DNA of 38,188 nt from Desulfobacteraceae bacterium CG2_30_51_40. GTDB taxonomy: Bacteria > Desulfobacterota > DSM-4660 > Desulfatiglandales > Desulfatiglandaceae. Location of the stretch: positions 1 to 38,188 of the forward strand of contig MNYJ01000038.1 of assembly GCA_001874005.1 (NCBI GenBank). Direction: 5' to 3'. Both the position numbers and the translations under genes were made by a program. Of the stretch, positions 8,601 through 35,170 are shown in pieces; position 1 is the first letter of the stretch, and the number at the start of each line of letters is the position of its first letter. The notes under the pieces are model-generated. The model was not told where the DNA came from. It saw only the letters and a list, made by a program, of their open reading frames with translations, and did no database searches.

Positions 8601-10373
8601 TTAGCTATTCTGCGGCCTTCCTTCGGCGTCCCAGCCCCTTGCTTTGTAATAGTCCTTGAGGAGGCTCTCCATGTCCTCGGGTGTGATGGTCTTGCCTGTC
8701 TCCGGCAGGGATTCCCGATGGAATCTAACCGGAAGTCTGTCATCAGACGGCAAAAGGCCTTCCCGGATGTTAAAAAGCCTTGTCTCGTCGGATATCCGTC
8801 CGGCAATCTTTCTCATTGAGTTCTTGTCCAGGTCAAGACCTGTGACAGCCTTTATCATTTCGGAGAGGGCCTCCCACTGGTATAGATCGCGGTAGAATCT
8901 GCACAGCACAAGAGTGTCAAATATGATAAGCCTGTCTTCCCACTCGGCGAACATCGCAGCCTTTCCTTCTATTTGATCCGGGGGGATCATTCCGGCCAGT
9001 TCAGGCTTATAAAATGTGGCTCTCAGGTGGCAAGCCCCTCTGGGTGAACTTCCGTAGGCAAGCCCCATACCTTTCAAGACCCTTGGGTCGTAACCTGCCG
9101 GTTCCAGCCCCTTGACGTGTATGGCCACATCCTCCATATCCCATTGCTTTGCCGCCTCTCTAATCCCTTGGGCCAGCGTGGCGCCTATACCTTTCTTGTA
9201 AGCCATTTCATTTAAAAGTTCGGCGATCCGCTCGGTTTCGCCGTAAGCTATTTGATAGTCCAGCTTCCCGAGGGATGAAGCCTCTATGGTAAAGGCAGCG
9301 AGGTTTCCGGCGCTGATGGTATCCATCCCGAGACGATCGCACAGGTCATTTAGATATGCGACCTCTTCTATCGTTTTTACCTCGCAGAGGCCTCCAAAGG
9401 CGTAGATGGTCTCATATTCGGGGCCTTCGAGCTTAAGGCCCGCGTGAGGCCCTTCCTTAACCTTGCTCATGCGGCCGCAGGCAATGAAACACCTTAGACA
9501 TGCGTGGGGTTCAACCTCAAGCCTGCTATGGAGGGCGGCCGCGTTGATGGACTCCCTGTGCTCCGCTTGCCCCTTGTGCCAGTATCGTGTGGGAAAGCTC
9601 CCCACATTGCTCATGATGTCAACCATCATCGGGGTTCCCAGGCTCTTGTAAGCGTTTACCCCCTTGTCATCCCTGGCATTGGTTGCAAATCTCTTAATGT
9701 AGTCCTTCAGGGCTTCCGGAGAGGCTACTTCTTTTTTAGCATTTCCCAGAAAAGCGATTCCTTTTAGGGCCTTTGAGCCCATGACAGCTCCCACTCCGGT
9801 TCTGCCGGCGCTTCGCCAGTAGTCATTCTCAATAACTGCGAAGCTTACCTGGTTTTCTCCGGCTGGACCTATTACAATTACCCCGCAATTTTTTACATCC
9901 GGTCTGCTGCTCCTGATTCTTTCCCTTATCAGGTCCTCTGCTTCAAAACAATCCGTCCCCCACAGGTCTCCTGCGTCGTGGAAGAGGGCGCCTGTATCGG
10001 CAATTTCGAGCCAGACAGGCCTCTTTGATTTTCCCTTTATTACAAAGGCGTCAAAGCCTGTCCTCGACATGTATTCGGCAGTAGTGCCGCCGGAATATGC
10101 CTCTGAATAGAGCCCTGTCTGAGGGGATTTTGTGTAAACTCCGTGTCTGCAAGATCCCCAGACAGCGGTTCCCGATACGGGCCCAAGGGCAAATATCAGG
10201 AGGTTTTCCGGTGAAAGCGGATCAACTCCCGCCGGGTTTTCCCTCAGGAGAATATGGGTTGCAAGGCCCTTTCCCCCCAGATATTTTTCAAGCACATCGT
10301 CATCCAGTTCTTCCGCCCTGGAGGAGCGGTCCGCCAGATCAATTCTAAGTATTCTGTTGAAATAACCTTTCAT
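8601..10373 (-). CDS. Tungsten aldehyde:ferredoxin oxidoreductase (AOR family)
   Basis: A 590-residue AOR-family enzyme, expected to oxidise aldehydes to acids (or the reverse) using a tungsten bis-pterin cofactor and one 4Fe-4S cluster. Cluster ligands are visible as Cys292, Cys295 and Cys299 (CLRCFIAC), with Cys491 (VLCRFYRD) the likely fourth. N-terminal YLGGKGLATHILL and GAVMGSKALKGIAF are family motifs. The chosen ATG at 10373 has AAGGAAA upstream; the 15 extra codons of the longer frame derive from a family A repeat. It lies downstream of an iron alcohol dehydrogenase on the same strand, suggesting alcohol to aldehyde to acid. It is clearly distinct from BamB at 32465-34444. Substrate not determined. 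Confidence 0.92.
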   Translation of the reverse strand: MKGYFNRILRIDLADRSSRAEELDDDVLEKYLGGKGLATHILLRENPAGVDPLSPENLLIFALGPVSGTAVWGSCRHGVYTKSPQTGLYSEAYSGGTTAEYMSRTGFDAFVIKGKSKRPVWLEIADTGALFHDAGDLWGTDCFEAEDLIRERIRSSRPDVKNCGVIVIGPAGENQVSFAVIENDYWRSAGRTGVGAVMGSKALKGIAFLGNAKKEVASPEALKDYIKRFATNARDDKGVNAYKSLGTPMMVDIMSNVGSFPTRYWHKGQAEHRESINAAALHSRLEVEPHACLRCFIACGRMSKVKEGPHAGLKLEGPEYETIYAFGGLCEVKTIEEVAYLNDLCDRLGMDTISAGNLAAFTIEASSLGKLDYQIAYGETERIAELLNEMAYKKGIGATLAQGIREAAKQWDMEDVAIHVKGLEPAGYDPRVLKGMGLAYGSSPRGACHLRATFYKPELAGMIPPDQIEGKAAMFAEWEDRLIIFDTLVLCRFYRDLYQWEALSEMIKAVTGLDLDKNSMRKIAGRISDETRLFNIREGLLPSDDRLPVRFHRESLPETGKTITPEDMESLLKDYYKARGWDAEGRPQNS

Positions 10374-10386
10374 CTGCTTTTCCTTA

Positions 10387-10419
10387 TTTTCATGCTTCGT
10401 TGTGCCCCAACAGGGCATG
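10387..10419 (-). repeat. Repeat family A head only
   Basis: On the minus strand this reads CATGCCC-TGTT-GGGGCAC followed by AACGAAGCATGAAAAT, the conserved head of family A without body or tail. It lies in the 59-base gap between the alcohol dehydrogenase and AOR genes, directly before the AOR ribosome site, and forms a small hairpin. Confidence 0.7.
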
Positions 10420-10432
10420 GCTGTTAAAAAGG

Positions 10433-11590
10433 CTAGAGGGCCTCACGGTAAATATCTACAGCGTCTTCCAACGTCATCATCCTCGGATTATTGGCAAGAA
10501 GCCTTGTCACCTTCATCACTCCCTCGGCCAATGCCTTCAGGTCGGAGTCCTTAACCCCGAATTGCGCCAGGTGCGTGGGAACCTTCAGGTCCTGCGCCAG
10601 CCTTTCGATTGCCGTCACAGCCAGTTCCGCGCGTCCAAGATGATCGCTTTCGGGTGAGGGAATTCCGAAGATATTTGCAATGTCTCCGAACTTTTCGACA
10701 TTTCCTATTAAATTGAAACGCATAACATGTGGCAGCATAAGAGTATTAGCCACTCCGTGCGGAATGTGAAATTCGGCTCCGATAGGATAAGCAAAGGCGT
10801 GCACTGCGGTAACACCGGCATTGGCAAAGGCGATGCCAGCCAGCAAGCTGCCCTCCATCATAGCCTCCCTTGCCTCAAGGTTCTTTCCGTTTGCAAAGGC
10901 GGTCCTCAGATTGCAGTAAAGAAGCCTCATCGCCCTCCGGGCAAACATATCAGTGATGCCTGAAGCATTCACGGAGGTATAGGCTTCAATGGCGTGTATC
11001 AAGGCGTCCATTCCCGTGGCGGCGGTAATCCCCGGCGGAAGCCCAAGGGTGAGTACCGGGTCCAGGATTGCCGATGCCGGAAAAAGATAAGGGCTCACTA
11101 TGCCCTTTTTCAATTTTTCTCCTTCATCTGAAAGGATTGCGATGGGTGTGACCTCACTGCCCGTGCCTGCCGTAGTAGGTATCATTATGGTAGGTAGTCC
11201 GCGATTAGGAATCAGATCCACTCCAAAATACAAGGAGATAGGGGCCTGATTTGTCGCCAAAACCGATGTGCTCTTTGCTATATCTATTGGGCTGCCTCCG
11301 CCAAGTCCGACTATTATGTCGGCACCGGCCTTCTTAAGGAGCGAAATGCAATCCTCGACTATTTCGTATCTGGGATCCGGCTCAACTCCGTCAAAGACCT
11401 CGAAGGGAATGCCTGCTGCCCTGAGGGGTTCAGTCACCGAGTCGAAAATACCGGATGAGATGATTCCTCTGTCTGTTACGAATAGTGCCTTTTTGCCCTT
11501 GAGTGCCTTTATCTCGGAGGGCAACTGGGCTATTGTTCCGGGGCCCATTATAATTCTTGGTATGGACCTGAATAGAATGGTCTTGTTCAT
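10433..11590 (-). CDS. Iron-containing (group III) alcohol dehydrogenase
   Basis: A 385-residue NAD(P)-dependent dehydrogenase of the iron-activated family. The nucleotide loop GGGSPID is at 97-103, the PTTAGTGSEVT motif at 138-148, and the metal ligands are Asp195, His199 (DALIHAIEAY), His264 (AVHAFAYP) and His278 (IPHGVAN), all present. The start at 11590 has AGGGAGA upstream; the 16 codons before it in the open frame look non-coding. It precedes the AOR gene by 59 bases on the same strand, so the two probably oxidise an alcohol in two steps. Benzyl-type or short-chain alcohols are both possible. It is about 300 bases downstream of the second Liv transporter. Confidence 0.93.
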   Translation of the reverse strand: MNKTILFRSIPRIIMGPGTIAQLPSEIKALKGKKALFVTDRGIISSGIFDSVTEPLRAAGIPFEVFDGVEPDPRYEIVEDCISLLKKAGADIIVGLGGGSPIDIAKSTSVLATNQAPISLYFGVDLIPNRGLPTIMIPTTAGTGSEVTPIAILSDEGEKLKKGIVSPYLFPASAILDPVLTLGLPPGITAATGMDALIHAIEAYTSVNASGITDMFARRAMRLLYCNLRTAFANGKNLEAREAMMEGSLLAGIAFANAGVTAVHAFAYPIGAEFHIPHGVANTLMLPHVMRFNLIGNVEKFGDIANIFGIPSPESDHLGRAELAVTAIERLAQDLKVPTHLAQFGVKDSDLKALAEGVMKVTRLLANNPRMMTLEDAVDIYREAL

Positions 11591-11631
11591 ATCATTCTCC
11601 CTATGCCAATCTCGTTTAGATTGATTTATTT

Positions 11632-11723
11632 GTATCATCTCAATAAATCGGGGGAAGACTTTTAGCCGATCAGGATATGCAGGCCTGAAAGCCGCTCCCG
11701 CCCCGGATTTTTGAGATCATAGT
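11632..11723 (+). repeat. Repeat family C, shortened copy
   Basis: TGTATCATCTCAATAAATCGGGGGAAGACTT... TGCAGGCCTGAA ... GGATTTTTGAGATCATA matches the two ends of the family C copy at 24841-24987, but the central GC hairpins are missing. It lies directly beside the 144-bp element at 11731. Confidence 0.55.
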
Positions 11724-24987: not shown

Positions 24988-25062
24988 CAATCCTCGTTAG
25001 AAAACTACTTTATAGGCCTAATTTGAGCGGGCCTGTAAATCTTAGCCAGAGAGTGGGGCGTG

Positions 25063-25896
25063 ATGGACAACACAGTTGCGGTTACAGTTACCCTTAGGGA
25101 AGGCAGTGTCGGGAGACCAAAGAGGCTTGAGATGATTCGGGAAGAGCCTCTTTCAATAAGGATACAGGAGCAGCCTTACGCGGTTGTCATGCGGACTCCT
25201 GGAGACGAGCAGGCGCATGTGGCGGGATTCTGCCTTGCCGAGGGAATAGTGGAAAGCCTTCAAGATATAGGAACTATTTTCTCGTGCGAGGAAGAGGATA
25301 CAAATGTTGTGAACCTCACAGTGACTCCCGAAAGGCTCAAATCCATAACAACGGTCCTTGAGCGCAAAGGCTTTGTGAGTCAGACCAGTTGCGGCATCTG
25401 CGGAAAGGAGATGGTCGAAGACCTCTCCCAGATGGTGCAGGCATTGCCTGAGGGCCCCTTGATAGACCTTGAAAGGGCCTCTGCATGCCTCGATGGGCTA
25501 AAGGCTATGCAGATACTTTACCACAAGACCAGAGCCTCACATGCGGCGGCGATCTATACGCCTGATCTTGAACTTTTGTCCCTGGCAGAAGACGTAGGAC
25601 GCCATAACGCACTGGATAAGGCAATAGGAAGGCTTTTCCTGCGAAACTCCCTCCACCGTGCAGGGGTGCTGATACTTTCTTCCCGGATAAGCTATGAGCT
25701 GGTTCAGAAGGCCGCAAGGGCCAAAATTCCCTTTGTTCTGTCCGCATCCAGAGCCACGGCGCTGGCGGTAGAACTGGCGGATTCCCTCAACATGACACTT
25801 GCGTCTCCTTCCAAGGAATCAGGGATTCATGTCTATTGCGGCTACGGCCGCCTGAAGCAACCTGAGGCTTTGAGTGCCGGGACTGGGAAACAGTAG
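25063..25896 (+). CDS. fdhD: FdhD, formate dehydrogenase sulfurtransferase/maturation factor
   Basis: A 277-residue FdhD protein. FdhD moves sulfur from IscS onto the Mo/W-bisPGD cofactor of formate dehydrogenase. Visible family features are the cysteine motif CGICG (Cys110 and Cys113), the N-terminal EEPLSIRI, the middle MRTPGDEQAHVAGFCLAEGI, the nucleotide-like SLAEDVGRHNALDKAIG and the C-terminal ending GIHVYCG. The start is the ATG at 25063, with an in-frame GTG three bases earlier as alternative. It stands alone on the plus strand, convergent with the GNAT gene; no formate dehydrogenase is in the window. Its presence beside tungsten and selenium enzymes may only reflect shared cofactor needs. 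Confidence 0.94.
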   Translation: MDNTVAVTVTLREGSVGRPKRLEMIREEPLSIRIQEQPYAVVMRTPGDEQAHVAGFCLAEGIVESLQDIGTIFSCEEEDTNVVNLTVTPERLKSITTVLERKGFVSQTSCGICGKEMVEDLSQMVQALPEGPLIDLERASACLDGLKAMQILYHKTRASHAAAIYTPDLELLSLAEDVGRHNALDKAIGRLFLRNSLHRAGVLILSSRISYELVQKAARAKIPFVLSASRATALAVELADSLNMTLASPSKESGIHVYCGYGRLKQPEALSAGTGKQ

Positions 25897-25958: not shown

Positions 25959-26411
25959 TTATACTGCACGTTCCAGATTGATGGTCTTTGATGGGCTGAA
26001 ATTGTTCGCGCTGAAAAAATGTATCAGCCTTGAATCGTTCCATTCAACCAGTGTGCTTATCTTTGTGACGCCCAGAGATTTCACGTGGGCGATAAACTCA
26101 TTGAGCAGCCTTTTCCCGAGGCCTTTATGCTGGAAGTCGGGATCAACCCCGATCGTATCCAGCGTTGCCTTTTCCTGGGAGATACCATATTCTCCAATAT
26201 AGAGTTCCCCCATAACGAAACCTGCCATGGCTCCGTCTTCCTTTTCGGCAACAAGCGACGCAGGCACGTAGTCCCTGGATTGCAAGAGCCTCTCAAGCTT
26301 CATCCTGTAATAATCAGGGCGGGAAATCCCCACTATTTTTTCGTCAATCCTGACCAGGGCATCAAAATCATCAGCCTTCATGAGTCTGATCTTAATGGCG
26401 CTCTTATCCAT
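25959..26411 (-). CDS. GNAT family N-acetyltransferase (downstream of bamF)
   Basis: A 150-residue GNAT protein. It starts MDKSAIKIRLMKADDFDAL; the acetyl-CoA loop is VDPDFQHKGLGKRLLNEFI (Q/R-x-x-G-x-G), preceded by the central strands GFVMGELYIGEYG and ATLDTIG. The ending FFSANNFSPSKTINLERAV closely resembles the ending FFKTLGFDRSSFINLRKEL of the GNAT at 34724-35170, so the two are paralogues flanking the bam operon. The start at 26411 has a modest GGGAG ahead; the longer open frame is dismissed. Substrate unknown; protein lysine acetylation is one option. Confidence 0.88.
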   Translation of the reverse strand: MDKSAIKIRLMKADDFDALVRIDEKIVGISRPDYYRMKLERLLQSRDYVPASLVAEKEDGAMAGFVMGELYIGEYGISQEKATLDTIGVDPDFQHKGLGKRLLNEFIAHVKSLGVTKISTLVEWNDSRLIHFFSANNFSPSKTINLERAV

Positions 26412-26616
26412 GTTTCTCTCACTCCCGTTCACAGTATCCTTGTATAATTTAAAGGGTCTGGTGGAAACACCTCCAGCCACAAAAACCCAAACTGGTCTAT
26501 GTTGTCTTCGAAACCAGACATTGACAACAGGACCATGATGCCCTTCTTTACGGGGATCCAGATTGCGATCCCGACTCAGGCGAAAGAGCCGGCTGCCTCC
26601 TTTTCTGATTTCCGAT

Positions 26617-27459
26617 CTATGCAGCCTTTTCCTTTGCTTTTCTCGCTACCGTCCTCTTTTCTTCAGGGACAGGTGGGGGCACCGGCTCGCCGGACAACTT
26701 CCTTATCGCTCCAAACCTTGGTGGACATGCCTCAAAACAGGTGCCGCACTTGATACATTTTTCCTGGTCAATAATATGGATAAGGTTTTTGCCGCCTGAT
26801 ATTGCTTCCACCGGGCATTTTTTTGAGCAGATCATGCAGGCCTGGCACTTGTCCGGATCAATGTAGTAGGAGACTACATCGCGGAACAGACTATCTATTT
26901 CTTCTCTTGCGAAAAGCGTTTCGTATTCTTCTTTACTGGCGATACGGGTTGAAAGCTTTTCCTTCATGACCATCTTGATGTAGGGGACAAGCCTTGCGAC
27001 ACTCGTTATCTTTGACTTGAGTTCAGCCTCGTCAATGCCTTCGGACTTTCCGAGAGGCCCAAGTTTCTTGATCCTCGCAGAGAAGGTATTCATTATCTCG
27101 GCGAAATGGATGCCTTCACTGGAGGACAGAAACTCGATTCCGAGTCTGTCAGGATTAAATCCGATGAACTCAATAATTTTCTTGCACAAAAGCACCATGG
27201 CTAGAGCATGGTAGTTGCCGTGAGTGACATAATTACACTCATTCAGTCGGCAACCGCCTATGATCACTCCGTCCATACCGTTTAGAAAGGCCCTGAGAAC
27301 AAATGCCAGATCAACTCTACCGGAACACATGACCCGAATAAGCCTTGCTTCAGTCGCATATTGTAGTCTGGAAACTCCAGCTAGGTCGGCAGCGCCGTAT
27401 GCTCACCAGTGGCATACAAAGCCTAGTATTTTCGGCCTAAAATTGGGATCTGTGACCAT
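26617..27459 (-). CDS. bamF: BamF: MvhD-like selenoprotein subunit with 2x[4Fe-4S]
   Basis: A 280-residue protein with an in-frame TGA at 27403-27405 read as selenocysteine 19. The N-terminus reads MVTDPNFRPKILGFVCHW-U-AYGAADLAG; MvhD/FlpD proteins have Cys-rich metal sites here (NWCSYGGAD-like), so Sec replaces a cluster-ligand Cys. RBS AGAGGTG lies eight bases before ATG 27459, and reading continues without other stops to 26617. The middle part VMCSGRVDLAFVL is classic MvhD. C-terminal ferredoxin motifs are CQACMICSKKCP and CIKCGTCFEACP. A SECIS-like hairpin follows the UGA. MvhD-like proteins pass electrons to HdrA; here the partner is BamE directly upstream. Reading only from the later ATG would give a 237-residue truncation. 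Confidence 0.9.
27368..27402 (-). promoter_or_regulatory. Putative SECIS element of bamF
   Basis: Starting 22 bases after the UGA, CTGGA-GTT-TCCAG (27368-27380) forms a perfect 5-bp stem with a three-base loop beginning with G. A bacterial SECIS hairpin within about 16-37 bases downstream, with G at the loop start, is what SelB needs. Confidence 0.72.
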
Positions 27460-27522: not shown

Positions 27523-30500
27523 TTAAGCCGCCGCATCAACCTGGCTCAATAGTTCTTCATCGGTAAAATGCTTAAGCTGTATTGCCCCTGTGGGGCACTT
27601 AGCATTACAAAGCCCGTCACCCTTACAGATGACAGGGTTGACTATTGCCTTTTTACCCTGCCGCGTATCACGAAATTCTATCGCGCCATAGGTGCAGGCG
27701 GAAATACATTGTCCGCACCCGATGCAACTGCTCTCCTTAACCTCACAGACAGAGCCTGAAACCGTCACGGTATCTCTTGAAAGCAGGGTTATGGCCCTGC
27801 CGGCGGCTCCGTATGACTGGTTAATTGTCTCTGGGATATGTTTGGGATAGTGGGCGATACCGCAGAGATACACTCCGTCCGTGCCGAATTCCACCGGACG
27901 CAGCTTCACATGGGCTTCCTTGAAGAAATCATCAGGCCCGAGGGAAACCTTGAATAACTGAGAGATATTGACGTTATCCTTCGATGGTATGACTGCAGCT
28001 GAAAGGGATACAATATCCGCGTCTATCGCCAGTTTTTTGCCCAGGATATAATCAGGTACTGTTACTCTCAATACGGGTCGGCCTTCCTCTTCCGCGGTTT
28101 CCACGCAGGGTCTGTCCTGCGGTTCATAACGAACAAACTTTACGTCTTTGTCTGACGCCTCCCGGTAATAATCTTCTCTGAATCCATAGGTCATCATATC
28201 CCGGTACAGGACATGGATATCCATCTGGGGGTTGATCTCTTTAAGTTTCAGGGCATTCTTTATCGCATGGCTGCAGCATATCCTGGCGCAGTAGTTTCTG
28301 TCTTCATTTCTGCATCCGACGCACTGGATCATCACCAGACTTCCGGCGCTCAGAATCTTTTCATCGCCCCTAGCAATTCTTTCCTCGAGTTCGAGGGTGG
28401 TGAGCACCCTTTCGTCCTGTCCATAGAGATACTCCGTGGGTTTGAACTCATCGGCGCCTGTGGCGATTATGGTAGCGCCGTGCTTTATCTCCGCTGTGCC
28501 TCTTTCGGATTTAATCTTTGTTACGAAATTACCAATATAGCCTGAAGCATCTGTTATGGCGGAGCCCGTATAGACATGAATCATGGGATGTTTATAGACC
28601 TTACCAATGAGGTCGTTGAGAAATGCCTGCACATCCAGCCCCTCAAGCGTATAATGAAGCCTTCTGGCTATGCCTCCCAGATCCGTATCCTTTTCGAGCA
28701 AATAAACATCGTGTCCCTGTTTGGCCAATGATAGGGAGCAGGTAATTCCGGCAATTCCTCCGCCCACTACCAGGACGGCCTTGTTCACCGGGAGATTAAT
28801 CTCCTGCAGGGGCTGCAAGTGGCTCGCCCTGGCAACAGACATGCGGATAATGTCCTGCGCCTTATTTGTAGCCTCTTCTTTCTCCAGAGAGTGTACCCAG
28901 GAGCAATGCTCCCGAATGTTGGCCATGTCATAGTAATATTGATTGATGCCTGCCTCTCTAAGCGTATCCCTGAACAGGGGTTCGAGTGTCCTCGGGCTGC
29001 ACGCGGCGACAATAACCCGGTTAAGCCCCTTTTCCTTTATCGTGTCCGTTATCTGTTTGGCAGAATTAGTGGCGCAGGAAAATAGCTGCTCCTGAGCATA
29101 TACAACATTCGGGAGGGTAAGGGCGTATTCCACTGTGGAAGGCACATTAACTATCCTTCCGATATTAGCCCCGCAGTGGCATACAAAGACGCCAATCCTT
29201 GGCTCCTCCTGAGAGACATCCCTTTCAGCAGGATAGATTCTATCCTTGGTCAGCTTTCCACGCCGGTAATTGAGGAGCTGGCCGCATTGAGAGCCGGCGC
29301 CGCTTGCGCTGAAGACTGATTCAGGAATATCGGTGGGTCCCTGGAAGACACCGCTCACAAATATTCCAGGACGAGAGGTCTCCATAGGGTTGACCGGGTT
29401 CACTTTACAGAACCGATGCTCGTTTAGTTCTATGCCGAATTTTTCAGCTAGGGATTTAACTTCAGCAGGAGGAGTCAAGCCTACTGACAATACAACCAGA
29501 TCAAATTCCTCTTCCTTTACCCCATCATCATGGGTGGAGTATCGAATGGCGACGCTCTTGGTTTCAGGATTTTCCCTTACTATAGAGGCATAACTTCTGA
29601 TGAAACGGATTCCTGGAAGCGCTGCCGTCTTTTCATAGTATCTCTCGAAGTCTTTACCGAAGGAGCGAATATCGTTATGGAATATAGTGCACTGGGCATC
29701 CGCTATATGATCCTTTGTCAGGATAACCTGTTTTTGGGCGTAAGTGCAGCATACGGCGGAACAATAGCTGTTGTCGCCCGGAGTAACGCGCCTTGAACCA
29801 ACGCACTGGATCCAGGCAATCTTGTGGGGATGGTCTTTGTCGGATGAACGCAATATCTCGCCTTCGTATGGACCCGTTGAGCAGAGAAGCCTTTCATAAT
29901 CCATGCTGGTCACAACGTTCTGCATTTTTCCGTAGCCGTATTCCGACTTTAAGCTCGGATCATAAGGCTCGAGTCCGGCTGAAAGTATTATCGCCCCTAC
30001 ATTGATATCAAATGTCTCGGCAGTTTGGCCCAGGTCTATGGCGTTATTCTGACAAACCCCTTCGCAGATTCCGCATTTCTTCTCTTTAAGATAAAGGCAG
30101 CTTTCATCAATGTAGGCTATTAGCGGAATCGCCTGGGCGAAGTATATGTGGACGGCCTTATTCTTGGATATTTTCTGGTTGAATCTGTCGGGATATTTTA
30201 CCGGGCAATATTCCATGCAGGTGGTGCAGCCGGTGCACCTGTCTTCTATTACATATCTGGGCTTTCTGGTCAGAGTGACCTTGAAGTTGCCGACCTCCCC
30301 AGCGACTCTGTCAACATCGGTTAATGTCATGACCTCAATGTTCGGATGCCGGCCGACCTCGACCAGTTTGGGAGAGAGAATTCACATAGAGCAGTCATTG
30401 GTCGGGAAGGTCTTGTCGAGCTGGGCCATGTGGCCGCCTATGGCCGGAGCCTTTTCAACCATATAGACCTTAAAGCCGGCTGTTGCCAGATCAAGCGATG

Positions 30501-30612
30501 CCTGAATTCCGCTTATCCCCCCTCCCACAACTAGAACATCACCAAAATTTCTACCCGAAAAGGCCTCGCAAGGCTGCTCTATCTTGTCCTTTTCCAGAGT
30601 CTCTTTTTCCAC
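27523..30612 (-). CDS. bamE: BamE: HdrA-like selenoflavoprotein of class II benzoyl-CoA reductase
   Basis: A 1029-residue HdrA-type protein with an in-frame TGA at 30382-30384 read as selenocysteine 77. The context TFPTNDCSM-U-ILSPKL is the Cys/Sec site of HdrA, known to be Sec in some methanogens. The GTG start at 30612 has GAGG upstream. Domains in order: first FAD-binding fold VVGGGISGIQ (29-38), 4Fe-4S motif CTGCTTCMEYCP, a long HdrA core, then a second FAD-binding fold VVGGGIAGITCSL in the middle, and two C-terminal 4Fe-4S motifs (CIGCGQCISAC and CKGDGLCNAKCP). HdrA hosts the FAD thought to bifurcate electrons; in Bam it links BamBC to the MvhD-like BamF. Naive calling gives two pieces, 76 and 935 codons. 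Confidence 0.92.
30349..30381 (-). promoter_or_regulatory. Putative SECIS element of bamE
   Basis: Fifteen bases after the UGA, CTGGTC (30361-30366) pairs with GGCCGG (30349-30354), allowing G-U pairs, around the six-base loop GAGGTC, which starts with G. The loop begins 21 bases downstream of UGA, within the accepted bacterial range. Confidence 0.65.
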
Positions 30613-30679: not shown

Positions 30680-31831
30680 CTAAATCACTTCTGCTATGAT
30701 CTCGGTTATGTCCTTAACTTCGATTTTGTCCACAGCATCCCTGGTCAAGCGGCTGTCTTCGAAGTTGGTTATGCAGTAAGGGCATGCTGTTACAAGAACC
30801 TCAGCTCCCTCCTCAAGGGCCTGATCTATTCTGAGATCAGAAAATCTCTGTCCTTTCGGAGTCTCCATCCATATCCTTCCGCCTCCGCCCCCGCAGCAAA
30901 GGCTGTCCGCCCGGCATTCCGGCATCTCAACAAGCTCAAGCCCGGGCACGCTATTCAGTACCTCCCTGGGCTCTTCAAATATCCCATTGTGACGTCCCAG
31001 ATAACAAGGATCATGGTAAGTAATCTTCTTATTATAAGCTTTACTTAATGTTATACGGCCTTGCTTGATCAGATCAGAGAGGAACTGGGATATATGAATG
31101 ATTTCAAAATTGACCCTGAAATCGGGATACTCATTCTTGAAGGTATGATAACAGTGAGGTGAGGAAACAAGGATTTTCTTTACGCCGCTGTCAATAAATG
31201 CCTTTATATTCTCCCTTGCCAGACGCTTAAAGAGCTCTTCATCTCCGGTCTTTCTGATGCTCTCACCGCAGCAGCTTTCCTTTTCTCCAAGTATGCCGAA
31301 ATCCACGCCGGCCTTGGTAAGGATAGCGGCTGTGGCCTTTGCGACCTTCTTCATCCTCGGGTCGTAGCTCAGGTAGCAGCCCGGGAAATAGAGGATTTCC
31401 ATGCCTTCTTCAAAGGCAGGGACAGATATGCCTTCCGCCCATTTGGCCCTGTTTTTTCTCTCCTCGTTTAAAGGATTGCCCTCTGCTACAAGGCTTGCGT
31501 TTATGGTACGGACAGACTTTACATGAGGAGGAAATATACCGTATTCATTAGCGATTCTTCTTAATGCAATGCCTGAGTCTATCTGCTTGACATCTCTGGG
31601 ACACCTCTGAGGGCATCGGCCGCAGGTTGTGCAAAGCCAAATATCTTCGCTTTCTATCTCAGTGAGGCCGAAGGTCGCCTCCCGCACAAGTTTGCGCATA
31701 CTGAATTTTGTGACCTTGTTCCAAGGGCAGACGGTGTCGCATAATCCGCATTGAAAACATTTCTTAAAGGCATCTCCGCCGCTTGCTTTTATGACGTCTA
31801 TGATCTCTTTGTAAGGGGCTACGGTCTCCAC
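30680..31831 (-). CDS. bamD: BamD: HdrBC-like Fe-S subunit
   Basis: A 383-residue fusion of an HdrC-like ferredoxin half and an HdrB-like half. 4Fe-4S motifs are Cys25/28/31/35 and Cys67/70/73/77. Two CCG-type domains follow: Cys152 with Cys187-188 (SCCGES) and Cys276 with Cys312-313 (LCCGGGG), which in HdrB hold the unusual noncubane 4Fe-4S clusters. The GTG start at 31831 has AGAGG eight bases upstream. It is 30 bases after bamC and 67 bases before bamE, in one operon. In the proposed Bam complex it would pass electrons between BamE and the BamC ferredoxin. No TGA interruptions seen. Confidence 0.9.
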   Translation of the reverse strand: METVAPYKEIIDVIKASGGDAFKKCFQCGLCDTVCPWNKVTKFSMRKLVREATFGLTEIESEDIWLCTTCGRCPQRCPRDVKQIDSGIALRRIANEYGIFPPHVKSVRTINASLVAEGNPLNEERKNRAKWAEGISVPAFEEGMEILYFPGCYLSYDPRMKKVAKATAAILTKAGVDFGILGEKESCCGESIRKTGDEELFKRLARENIKAFIDSGVKKILVSSPHCYHTFKNEYPDFRVNFEIIHISQFLSDLIKQGRITLSKAYNKKITYHDPCYLGRHNGIFEEPREVLNSVPGLELVEMPECRADSLCCGGGGGRIWMETPKGQRFSDLRIDQALEEGAEVLVTACPYCITNFEDSRLTRDAVDKIEVKDITEIIAEVI

Positions 31832-31861: not shown

Positions 31862-32416
31862 TCAGCCCTTCTTTGACATTGAAAGTCGCGCAACGGTTTC
31901 GGTTATCTTATCCAAACCGTACTTGTCCAGCAGGGCCTCGAGACCTATCTCCATATCTTCCTTTTTTACTTCTTCCTCTTCATCCACTTCCACTTCCCTT
32001 TCCTCATAGATCAGGGCCTTGTTGAGGCACCACTGAACACACAAGGGCTCTTTCTGTGGTGGATCGTCTTCGCACATATCGCATTTAAGAGGGAGACCGG
32101 AGTCAGGCTCCTTGAAGAGATCCCGGGACGGGCATGAGGCCCTGCAGAACGCGCATTCATCGTATTCCTTCCCGTCAATGACATACTTGTCTCTGCCGGT
32201 ACACTCGGCCTTGGTGTATTCACCCGCATAGACCGGAATGTAGATGTCCTTCAAGGGTTCATGAATAACACGGATGCGGCTTCTGGCCGGGTTATTGCTG
32301 CTGTATTTGGGCGCAGCGTGAAAGGCGGAGCAGATCACCTCACATGCCCTGCAGCCGTTACATTTATCAACATCAACTTTTATCGTCTTAACTATTTTCT
32401 TTTTCTTTTCACCCAT
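31862..32416 (-). CDS. bamC: BamC: polyferredoxin electron-transfer subunit
   Basis: A 184-residue Fe-S protein. Cys motifs: C19-xx-C-xx-C-xxx-C29 (CNGCRACEVIC), a middle ECAFCRASC, and KCDMCEDDPPQKEPLC with VQWC, the HycB/DmsB-like three-cluster pattern. The C-terminal 45 residues are acidic (EVEVDEEEEVKKEDM) and lack cysteines. It starts 48 bases after bamB and should be the direct electron donor to the BamB tungsten site. Start at 32416. Confidence 0.92.
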   Translation of the reverse strand: MGEKKKKIVKTIKVDVDKCNGCRACEVICSAFHAAPKYSSNNPARSRIRVIHEPLKDIYIPVYAGEYTKAECTGRDKYVIDGKEYDECAFCRASCPSRDLFKEPDSGLPLKCDMCEDDPPQKEPLCVQWCLNKALIYEEREVEVDEEEEVKKEDMEIGLEALLDKYGLDKITETVARLSMSKKG

Positions 32417-32464: not shown

Positions 32465-34444
32465 CTAGCTTGATGGGGCGGACTCCTTGTCCGGCAATAT
32501 CCCCCTCTTTATGAAGTCCTCGCCTACAAAGTCGAGCCCCAGTTCGTGCAGGGATTCCTTAGTCGGTATTCCATCCTTATTCCAGCCCCTGAACTTGTAG
32601 TATTCGTTTAAAAGCTTTTCTTCAAGCTCGGGGAATCTCTTTTTCCAGTGGTCTTCAGGCGGCTTTTCGTCTTTTCTTCTCATCCCTCTTCTTACGTTTA
32701 GCGCCCTGACAAGATTTCTGTTCCTTCTTGCAACCTGTGTCAGTCTGTCCTCATCCATCTCAATGCCGGCGCCCGCGGAAATGAACTTGGGATAGTTGTG
32801 TATATGGTAGGGCGGCTTTAGGGGAAATGAGGAAAGGCCCGCGCAAACTCCCAGCGCATCGTCTATGTAGTGCATCCTTTCCTGCCAATCCACTATGTCG
32901 CAGGTAGCCTCGACAGTGGGATAGAAGGGGATGGATTTTTCTCCTCTAAGCTCCCAGTCAAGAAAGTATTGCTTGAATTTCTCATCAGGGACCTGTATCC
33001 AGTCCTTTACGAATGCCTCCCTTTCCTCTCTGGTAGGGAAGGGCGACTGCGGGAATTGACCTTCTATCTGGGTGATGTTTATCTTCTCACCGGTGGCATA
33101 CATAAGGAAATAGATTGGATTTAGCATGCCCAGTTTGAGAGGAAGCTGCTCATGCTTTTTAATGTTATTGTGGGCGTATGCCTCGGCTCCCTTGCCTATC
33201 TGCTGTGCTGCCCAGTGTGTACCGTTGGCAAGTATATCTCCTATCCCTTCCCTCCTCACGATCCTGTCTAGCAGCCAGTAGAACCTTTCTTCGTTATCGG
33301 CCGGGAAACCGGGCATATCCTGATCGGTGAGGATGCCTGCCTCATAGAGTTCAACTGCAAAGGCCATTACCTGGGGGGCTGAAAAACCGTCCACTCCGTA
33401 TTCTGTTGCCCTCTGCGCAATCTTCAAGCCGAAATCCAGATCAGACATCGCGGCCATCGTATAGGTAAGCTTTGAGAAACACTTCATCATGTAAGTGGGG
33501 AGTCCCGGCACAGTAATGGTCCCGCCGCATTTCATAGGGCAGTTATAACAGCTTATGAGGCGCGTGCGCATTGAATCCAGGGTCTCTGCCCATTTCTTTG
33601 CGATCTCATCATTCCAGAAGTCTTTCCTCCGGAGTCTCGCGTTTCCCCATGCGAAATTCTCGGTATGCCATTTCTCGTCATGTACCGCCATCTCCTGAGG
33701 CGACCCAAGACCGGCAAGAATCGGCATTACTCCCTGGATGGGATTTTCGTTACGCCGTTCTATGTACTTAAGCACCTCATTGCATAGGGCCATAAATTCT
33801 GCAGGGCGGGCCAGCTTCAAATCCTTGGTCCCCCGTACGGCAATGGCCTTCACACCCTTATCGCCCATTACCGCACCTAATCCTGCTCGGCTTGCACTAG
33901 ATCTTCCCTGTTCTATGGAGGCGAAATAGACCTTGCTTTCTCCTGCAAGGCCTATGGAGGCTACCTGAGCCTTGGGTTCCTTGAGTTCCTCCCGGATTAG
34001 TTGAGCTGTTTCTACCGCGCCCTTCCCTTTGAGATGAGAGGCGTCTCGTATTTCAACCTTGTCGTTGTTGATCCATATATAGACAAGGTCGGGCGACTTG
34101 CCCCGGAGTATGACCTTGTCATAACCTGCATACTTTAGTTCCGGCGCCCAGAATCCCCCCATCATCGAGTAGGCCATCAAGCGGGTCTGAGGAGAGAAGG
34201 TTGAAACAACGGTTCGATTGGCACCCGTTGCCGGAGTGCCGCACAGGAGGCCTGTCCCGAATATAAGGAGATTTTCGGCAGAGAAGGGCTCTGCCTCGGC
34301 AGGAACCCTGTCCCATAATATCCTGGCATTGGTACCAAGACCTCCCAGGTGCTCTTCGGTCAGCCTCGGGTCAGTCTCGACCCTGTCAATACTCCCCTTT
34401 GAAAGATCTATTTCAAGGTTAAATCCTGTCTCAGCGTACCTCAT
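32465..34444 (-). CDS. bamB: BamB: tungsten active-site subunit of class II benzoyl-CoA reductase
   Basis: A 659-residue AOR-family enzyme that reduces benzoyl-CoA to cyclohexa-1,5-diene-1-carboxyl-CoA without ATP. Its numbering matches the Geobacter BamB residues I recall: Glu251 and His260 (EMAVHDEKWH) and Cys322 (KCFSKLTYTM). Three 4Fe-4S ligands are Cys299, Cys302 and Cys306 (CYNCPMKC). The N-terminus MRYAETGFNLEIDLSKGSID is BamB-like and different from the AOR at 8601-10373. The start at 34444 has AGGGG upstream. It is the first gene of bamBCDEF. A close paralogue acting on another aryl-CoA remains possible. BamGHI-like genes do not follow bamF here. Confidence 0.94.
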   Translation of the reverse strand: MRYAETGFNLEIDLSKGSIDRVETDPRLTEEHLGGLGTNARILWDRVPAEAEPFSAENLLIFGTGLLCGTPATGANRTVVSTFSPQTRLMAYSMMGGFWAPELKYAGYDKVILRGKSPDLVYIWINNDKVEIRDASHLKGKGAVETAQLIREELKEPKAQVASIGLAGESKVYFASIEQGRSSASRAGLGAVMGDKGVKAIAVRGTKDLKLARPAEFMALCNEVLKYIERRNENPIQGVMPILAGLGSPQEMAVHDEKWHTENFAWGNARLRRKDFWNDEIAKKWAETLDSMRTRLISCYNCPMKCGGTITVPGLPTYMMKCFSKLTYTMAAMSDLDFGLKIAQRATEYGVDGFSAPQVMAFAVELYEAGILTDQDMPGFPADNEERFYWLLDRIVRREGIGDILANGTHWAAQQIGKGAEAYAHNNIKKHEQLPLKLGMLNPIYFLMYATGEKINITQIEGQFPQSPFPTREEREAFVKDWIQVPDEKFKQYFLDWELRGEKSIPFYPTVEATCDIVDWQERMHYIDDALGVCAGLSSFPLKPPYHIHNYPKFISAGAGIEMDEDRLTQVARRNRNLVRALNVRRGMRRKDEKPPEDHWKKRFPELEEKLLNEYYKFRGWNKDGIPTKESLHELGLDFVGEDFIKRGILPDKESAPSS

Positions 34445-34723: not shown

Positions 34724-35170
34724 TCAAAGCTCTTTTCTCAGATTTATGAAGCTGCTCCTGTCGAAGCCCAGGGTCTTAAAAAATGACAAAAGGTCTGCCG
34801 AATCCCACCTGACAGAGGTAAATATATATTTGATGGCCTTCTTATTGTAGAAAGCTATTATCTCCTCAGCGAGCAGCTTTCCGATGCCCTGTCCCATCCA
34901 CTTGGGGTGAACGCCCAAGTTTGCAATCCATGCGCTTTTCTCAAGACCGTATCCGCCATAAACGATGTAGCTGATCATAAATCCGGCAATCTTACCGTCA
35001 ATCTCCGCCACAAAGCTTGCACTCTCACCCCTCAGGAGCTGCGCTTCTACGATGCGTCTGAAGTCGGTGGCCGGCGGATCCTGCATTATCATTGTATGGA
35101 TTCGGTTGATCTCGTCTGCGTCTTCAACCCTGATTGGACGGATTATGAGATTTGCAAGTGACTCGCTCAT
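34724..35170 (-). CDS. GNAT family N-acetyltransferase (upstream of bamB)
   Basis: A 148-residue GNAT protein. The CoA loop is VHPKWMGQGIGKLLAEEII (Q-x-x-G-x-G-K type) after strands GFMISYIVYGGYG and AWIANLG. The ending DLLSFFKTLGFDRSSFINLRKEL parallels the GNAT at 25959-26411. RBS AGGAAAG precedes the ATG at 35170. It forms a short operon with the DUF2080-like gene 16 bases upstream, on the bam strand, with repeat family A between it and bamB. A role in acetylating CoA-pathway enzymes is a guess from context. Confidence 0.87.
   Translation of the reverse strand: MSESLANLIIRPIRVEDADEINRIHTMIMQDPPATDFRRIVEAQLLRGESASFVAEIDGKIAGFMISYIVYGGYGLEKSAWIANLGVHPKWMGQGIGKLLAEEIIAFYNKKAIKYIFTSVRWDSADLLSFFKTLGFDRSSFINLRKEL

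Follow-up and report, generated by a model that had tools for sequence, protein, structure and literature searches.

Evidence for a selenocysteine upstream of the apparent start of BamF in a class II benzoyl-CoA reductase gene cluster

Introduction

BamF is the predicted electron carrier of an enzyme complex for the oxygen-independent opening of aromatic rings. In a 38,188-nucleotide stretch of the genome of Desulfobacteraceae bacterium CG2_30_51_40 (hereafter the window), a standard ORF caller places its gene at 26617–27330, and the question raised by this locus is whether the gene in fact extends upstream through an in-frame UGA codon that is read as selenocysteine (Sec). A sequence-only reading had proposed such an extension, with a second selenoprotein next to it and a low-potential, Sec-ligated relay formed by the two. 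Here we examine the frame and start of bamF, the conservation of the UGA codon and of the hairpin that follows it, the Sec machinery of the host, and the pairing of BamF with BamE.

Results and discussion

The bamF frame and its start

The features of the gene are as follows.

26617–27459, minus strand: bamF, 280 amino acids when translated with UGA as Sec; stop codon TAG at 26617–26619
27457–27459, minus strand: predicted true start ATG, after a AGAGGTGA ribosome-binding site
27403–27405, minus strand: UGA predicted to be read as Sec, residue 19 (CHW-U)
27368–27380, minus strand: candidate apical hairpin of a bacterial SECIS element, CTGGA-GTT-TCCAG, beginning 22 nt after the UGA
27328–27330, minus strand: internal ATG, encoding Met44 ('IRVMCSGR'), at which a naive gene caller would wrongly start

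Translated with Sec, the product begins MVTDPNFRPKILGFVCHW-U-AYGAADLAG, the local motif being VCHW-U-AYGAADLAG. Residues 11–134 form a complete FlpD/MvhD domain (PF02662; 152 bits versus a cut-off of 22.3, E = 9.7e-45, profile positions 1–123 of 123), MvhD (5odc_D) aligns to residues 7–143 (E = 3.7e-38), and the C-terminal part contains a 2x[4Fe-4S] ferredoxin domain, residues 198–252 being ferredoxin-like. These matches and the bam gene neighbourhood support the proposed identity of the product as an MvhD-like BamF. The FlpD domain is full only when the UGA is read through, which counts for the selenocysteine reading. The plasmid collection contained no close full-length relative.

A start at ATG 27330, which is what the standard caller returns, would make the UGA an ordinary stop in untranslated DNA. 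We consider this very improbable: Met44 falls within the FlpD domain, residues 9–43 rank with the best-conserved parts of the protein, and no good ribosome-binding site precedes 27330. ATG 27459, in contrast, follows a ribosome site (AAAAGAGGTGAATACGG-ATG), and a start exactly 18 codons 5' of the Sec codon with a Shine-Dalgarno-like site is found in 56 of the 73 Sec homologues whose upstream sequence was long enough; the call at 27330 is thus a gene-caller artefact that removes the first 43 residues, as had been claimed. Because this upstream start is conserved, neither of two possible objections to the longer frame holds: the N-terminal CxxC/CxxU segment is present in the homologues, and conservation does not favour a start at 27330. 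Met44 itself is invariant among the aligned orthologues and is also present in a Cys paralogue (L004).

Conservation of the UGA codon

Codons at residue 19 were counted in 80 homologues from species-representative genomes, 78 of which had a readable codon there: TGA is present in 74 and TGC or TGT (Cys) in 4. An in-frame TGA was likewise found in most full-length relatives, both among the 61 nearest genomes and in a phylum-wide set of 345. The alignment that the earlier reading had called for places residue 19 at a conserved Cys of MvhD 5odc_D and of the Cys homologues. The UGA might instead be a sequencing error, or a mutation of an ancestral Cys codon in a pseudogene. One TGC to TGA change would suffice, and the host assembly is itself a draft (229 contigs, 3.44 Mb, 97% completeness); the recurrence of TGA at the same codon among the homologues, and a freeze of synonymous sites that is confined to the surroundings of the hairpin (described below), nevertheless reduce the probability of this explanation to a practically negligible level.

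Sec versions were found under the labels Thermodesulfobacteriota, Bacillota, Chloroflexota, and others, some of these labels being those of metagenome bins that may be wrong. One bacterial-type Sec bamEF locus (L049) lies on a contig binned as Bathyarchaeota and is probably mis-binned. Extra UGA codons seen in some homologues of the species-representative set, at residues 273–279, were rejected as Sec candidates and are ordinary stops.

The hairpin downstream of the UGA

Bacterial SECIS elements generally have a hairpin 16–37 nt after the UGA, with a G among the first two loop nucleotides. The bamF hairpin, with its perfect 5-bp stem and GTT loop, fits both the spacing and the loop-G rule, and the earlier description of a 5-bp, G-initial-loop hairpin 22 bases past the UGA proved exact (27380–27368). 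Its fold, at -7.2 kcal/mol, includes a bulged TAG/CTA extension on the outer side of the stem. The hairpin was ruled out as stand-alone evidence, since 89 of the 1442 TGA triplets (6%) on both strands of the window precede a similar hairpin, likewise with a perfect 5-bp stem and a G among its first two loop nucleotides, and the 61-nt fold has a z-score of only -1.06 (-2.44 for the 26-nt core alone). A search of Rfam gave no match at the bamF locus.

Its conservation is more informative. Among 75 Sec sequences, the hairpin is identical in 68, and CGGG..CCCG variants stay paired; four of the five stem pairs are always paired and the fifth in 93%, and the stem extends past the bulge by three further pairs that are present in 92–99% of the sequences. 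The second stem pair is T-A in 73 sequences and G-C in 2, and G-C occurs again in the clade of three genomes L167–L169, whose CGGGAGTTTCCCG hairpin represents a compensatory change. At the codons that encode the hairpin (residues 27–31), the mean share of the most frequent codon is 0.95, compared with 0.62 elsewhere in the gene. In 200 within-gene synonymous codon shuffles, a null that does not model shared ancestry and for which the other windows of the same genes serve as an internal control, the maximum was 64% for any five-codon window and 40% for the hairpin window. The four Cys versions in the homologue set do not retain the hairpin codons. The frozen synonymous sites and the compensatory pairs indicate that the bamF hairpin is under selection, in the manner expected for a bacterial SECIS element.

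Selenocysteine machinery and FlpD paralogues of the host

The host genome contains tRNA-Sec (anticodon UCA), SelA, SelB, and SelD, and the selD gene itself has an in-frame TGA. In-frame TGA codons are also present in 5 of the 12 FlpD genes of this genome, in which Sec occupies either residue 19 or a later GUHxGDC site, both being family-conserved Cys sites. In the two MvhD paralogues L001 and L002 (G000 contigs C89 and C30, ~1516 of the reverse complement), the TGA is located at the second conserved Cys (GUHxGDC) and not in a CxxU motif. The presence of in-frame TGA in several host genes might also be expected if the genome as a whole read UGA as an ordinary amino acid. The probability of this is vanishingly small: 12 of the 28 genes in the window terminate at TGA, which argues against wholesale reassignment, the in-frame TGA codons that were seen coincide with Sec/Cys positions of selenoprotein families already known, and tRNA-Sec and the Sel proteins are present.

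These data provide very strong evidence that the UGA at 27405–27403 is decoded as Sec, and the hidden selenocysteine proposed in the motif VCHW-UGA-AYGAADLAG is borne out. The conserved TGA, the nearly frozen synonymous sites, the start conserved 18 codons upstream, and the complete Sec machinery together exceed what would be expected by chance.

The neighbouring bam genes

The genes upstream of bamF and the Sec-related features of bamE are as follows.

27523–30612, minus strand: bamE, likely beginning at GTG 30612; HdrA-like selenoprotein (HdrA2 model, 957 bits)
30349–30366, minus strand: SECIS-like hairpin of bamE, CTGGTCGAGGTCGGCCGG, folding at -10.2 kcal/mol
30382–30384, minus strand: UGA (Sec) of BamE, TNDCSM-U-ILSPK
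30680–31831, minus strand: bamD, HdrD/CCG-domain protein (PF02754)
31862–32416, minus strand: bamC, ferredoxin-like, with 4Fe-4S domains
32465–34444, minus strand: bamB, tungsten benzoyl-CoA reductase catalytic subunit, matching 4z3w_A

Judged from its gene products, bamBCDEF is a class II benzoyl-CoA reductase cluster, because BamB closely matches the solved 4z3w (1215 bits over 650 residues of 4z3w_A, 'benzoyl-CoA reductase, putative'). In 31 long loci with a Sec bamF, BamB, BamC, and BamD are encoded nearby in 28, 28, and 27, respectively. BamGHI genes do not adjoin the bam cluster within the window. Just beyond bamF, an FdhD/NarQ-family protein is encoded at 25060–25896 (plus strand); it may serve the maturation of a Mo/W enzyme. 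Two GNAT acetyltransferase genes flank the bam genes (25959–26480 and 34724–35170, minus strand), and bamK of Geobacter metallireducens is also annotated as an N-acetyltransferase. A second protein of the aldehyde:ferredoxin oxidoreductase family is encoded beside an iron-type alcohol dehydrogenase elsewhere in the window (8601–10418 and 10433–11638, minus strand).

The claim of two adjacent selenoproteins is also upheld. The BamE codon is TGA in all 58 scorable loci, the window included, and the nucleotides of its hairpin are nearly frozen across loci. Since the likely start of bamE is GTG 30612, the N terminus with its Sec residue is lost when a standard caller starts at ATG 30330. Both Sec residues therefore disappear from the standard ORF call, which leaves bamF 43 residues and bamE ~94 residues short, and similar truncation is to be expected in many anaerobes that share the bamE–bamF arrangement.

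Pairing of Sec and Cys in BamE and BamF

Among the loci of the homologue set in which both residues are readable, 56 have Sec in both BamE and BamF, 4 have Cys in both, and none is mixed. The host genome itself contains, on another contig, a Cys/Cys pair (L141, G000:C44, 670–4683, minus strand) whose neighbours encode a protein with hydrophobic segments and one resembling HdrD, and no BamB, BamC, or BamD was found near Cys/Cys pairs in nine loci. A combination of Cys-BamE with Sec-BamF is present elsewhere in the phylum, in the three related genomes L167–L169, and corresponds to the pattern suggested by the selenoproteome of G. metallireducens, in which FrhD is listed and HdrA is not (PMC1794560). 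In a quick, preliminary tree, the Cys/Cys proteins group in one clade (support 92), and a separate clade (support 100) holds the Cys/Sec proteins. Repeated parallel switching from Sec/Sec to Cys/Cys was considered but is not supported, given the single Cys/Cys clade in this tree; because each pattern forms one clade, a few old Sec/Cys events are indicated instead of repeated joint switching. That Sec/Sec pairs neighbour BamBCD, and that the Cys/Cys paralogue clade never does in these loci, is possibly a new detail. The Cys/Cys pair of the same genome and the Cys-BamE/Sec-BamF clade offer natural comparisons for what Sec contributes to an electron-bifurcating complex.

Proposed function

We are highly confident that this bamF belongs to a class II cluster, that its UGA would be decoded as Sec by SelB and tRNA-Sec under the direction of the hairpin 22 nt downstream, and that its product would be an MvhD-type electron-transfer subunit, here fused to a two-cluster ferredoxin domain. 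The class II reductase has been proposed to reach the very low potential of ring reduction by flavin-based bifurcation (PMC11971306, PMC9304861), and BamF is therefore likely to carry electrons to or from BamE; most likely, it would shuttle them between the FAD of the HdrA-like Sec-BamE and the other subunits.

Characterized MvhD carries one [2Fe-2S] cluster. We infer, as for the direction and potential of electron transfer, that Sec19 of the CxxU motif acts as a cluster ligand or redox residue. A role as a thiol-redox residue or oxygen-resistance feature and not as an Fe-S ligand, which would leave no Sec-ligated relay, is a minority possibility of some weight: CxxU is a classic redox motif, and Cys homologues fill the same position with Cys. 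The host paralogues, however, have Sec at residue 19 or at GUHxGDC, each a Cys site conserved in the family, and this would fit two ligands of one shared cluster. The low-potential, Sec-ligated relay of the earlier reading is best described as possible and putative. A broader scheme is more tentative still, and we think it unlikely to hold in full: the Sec residues of BamE and BamF would form one unit, in which both selenols ligate or gate clusters of the low-potential branch leading to ring reduction, the Sec pair being kept where BamB is the acceptor and exchanged jointly for Cys in a paralogue with a different partner, which may be membrane-bound. More generally, Sec in these subunits would link the anaerobic breakdown of aromatics, in several phyla, to the supply of selenium.

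Comparison with known systems

A Sec-containing BamF does not come as a surprise, since pairs of Sec-MvhD/FrhD and Sec-HdrA are catalogued selenoproteins. The MvhD/VhuD/FrhD family (PF02662, CxxU) is among the experimentally verified selenoprotein families (PMC13188914). BamF shares with this family the domain, the CxxU position, and the HdrA neighbour, but differs in its C-terminal fusion to a two-cluster ferredoxin and in being tied to BamBCD and not to a hydrogenase.

The class II complex Bam[(BC)2DEFGHI]2 of G. metallireducens has in common with the present locus BamB and the gene order BamBCDEF. The present locus differs in that BamE is also a Sec protein and in that its bam genes are not adjoined by BamGHI, which belong to the holoenzyme of Geobacter. 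The purified Geobacter complex reportedly contains selenium. In a survey of selenoproteomes, 19 bacterial Sec-FrhD proteins were counted, with hosts including G. metallireducens and Syntrophus aciditrophicus (PMC1794560), and the Sec-FrhD listed for G. metallireducens is probably its BamF.

In Desulfococcus multivorans, the HdrA-like BamE has an in-frame UGA, as in the window, and is a Sec protein; the list of five UGA-containing genes of this species includes BamE and an mvhD gene at another locus, but not bamF (PMC5109826). Desulfobacterium autotrophicum has Sec hdrA and mvhD genes (PMC2702500), and its hdrA–mvhD pairs are like the window in being adjacent, in having selenoproteins among both, and in forming one electron-transfer unit, whereas they are linked to hydrogenase, formate dehydrogenase, or Dsr genes and not to BamB. 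Because Sec-MvhD/FrhD, Sec-HdrA, and Sec-BamE have already been reported, the BamF described here is best regarded as an easily mis-annotated addition to a known selenoprotein family.
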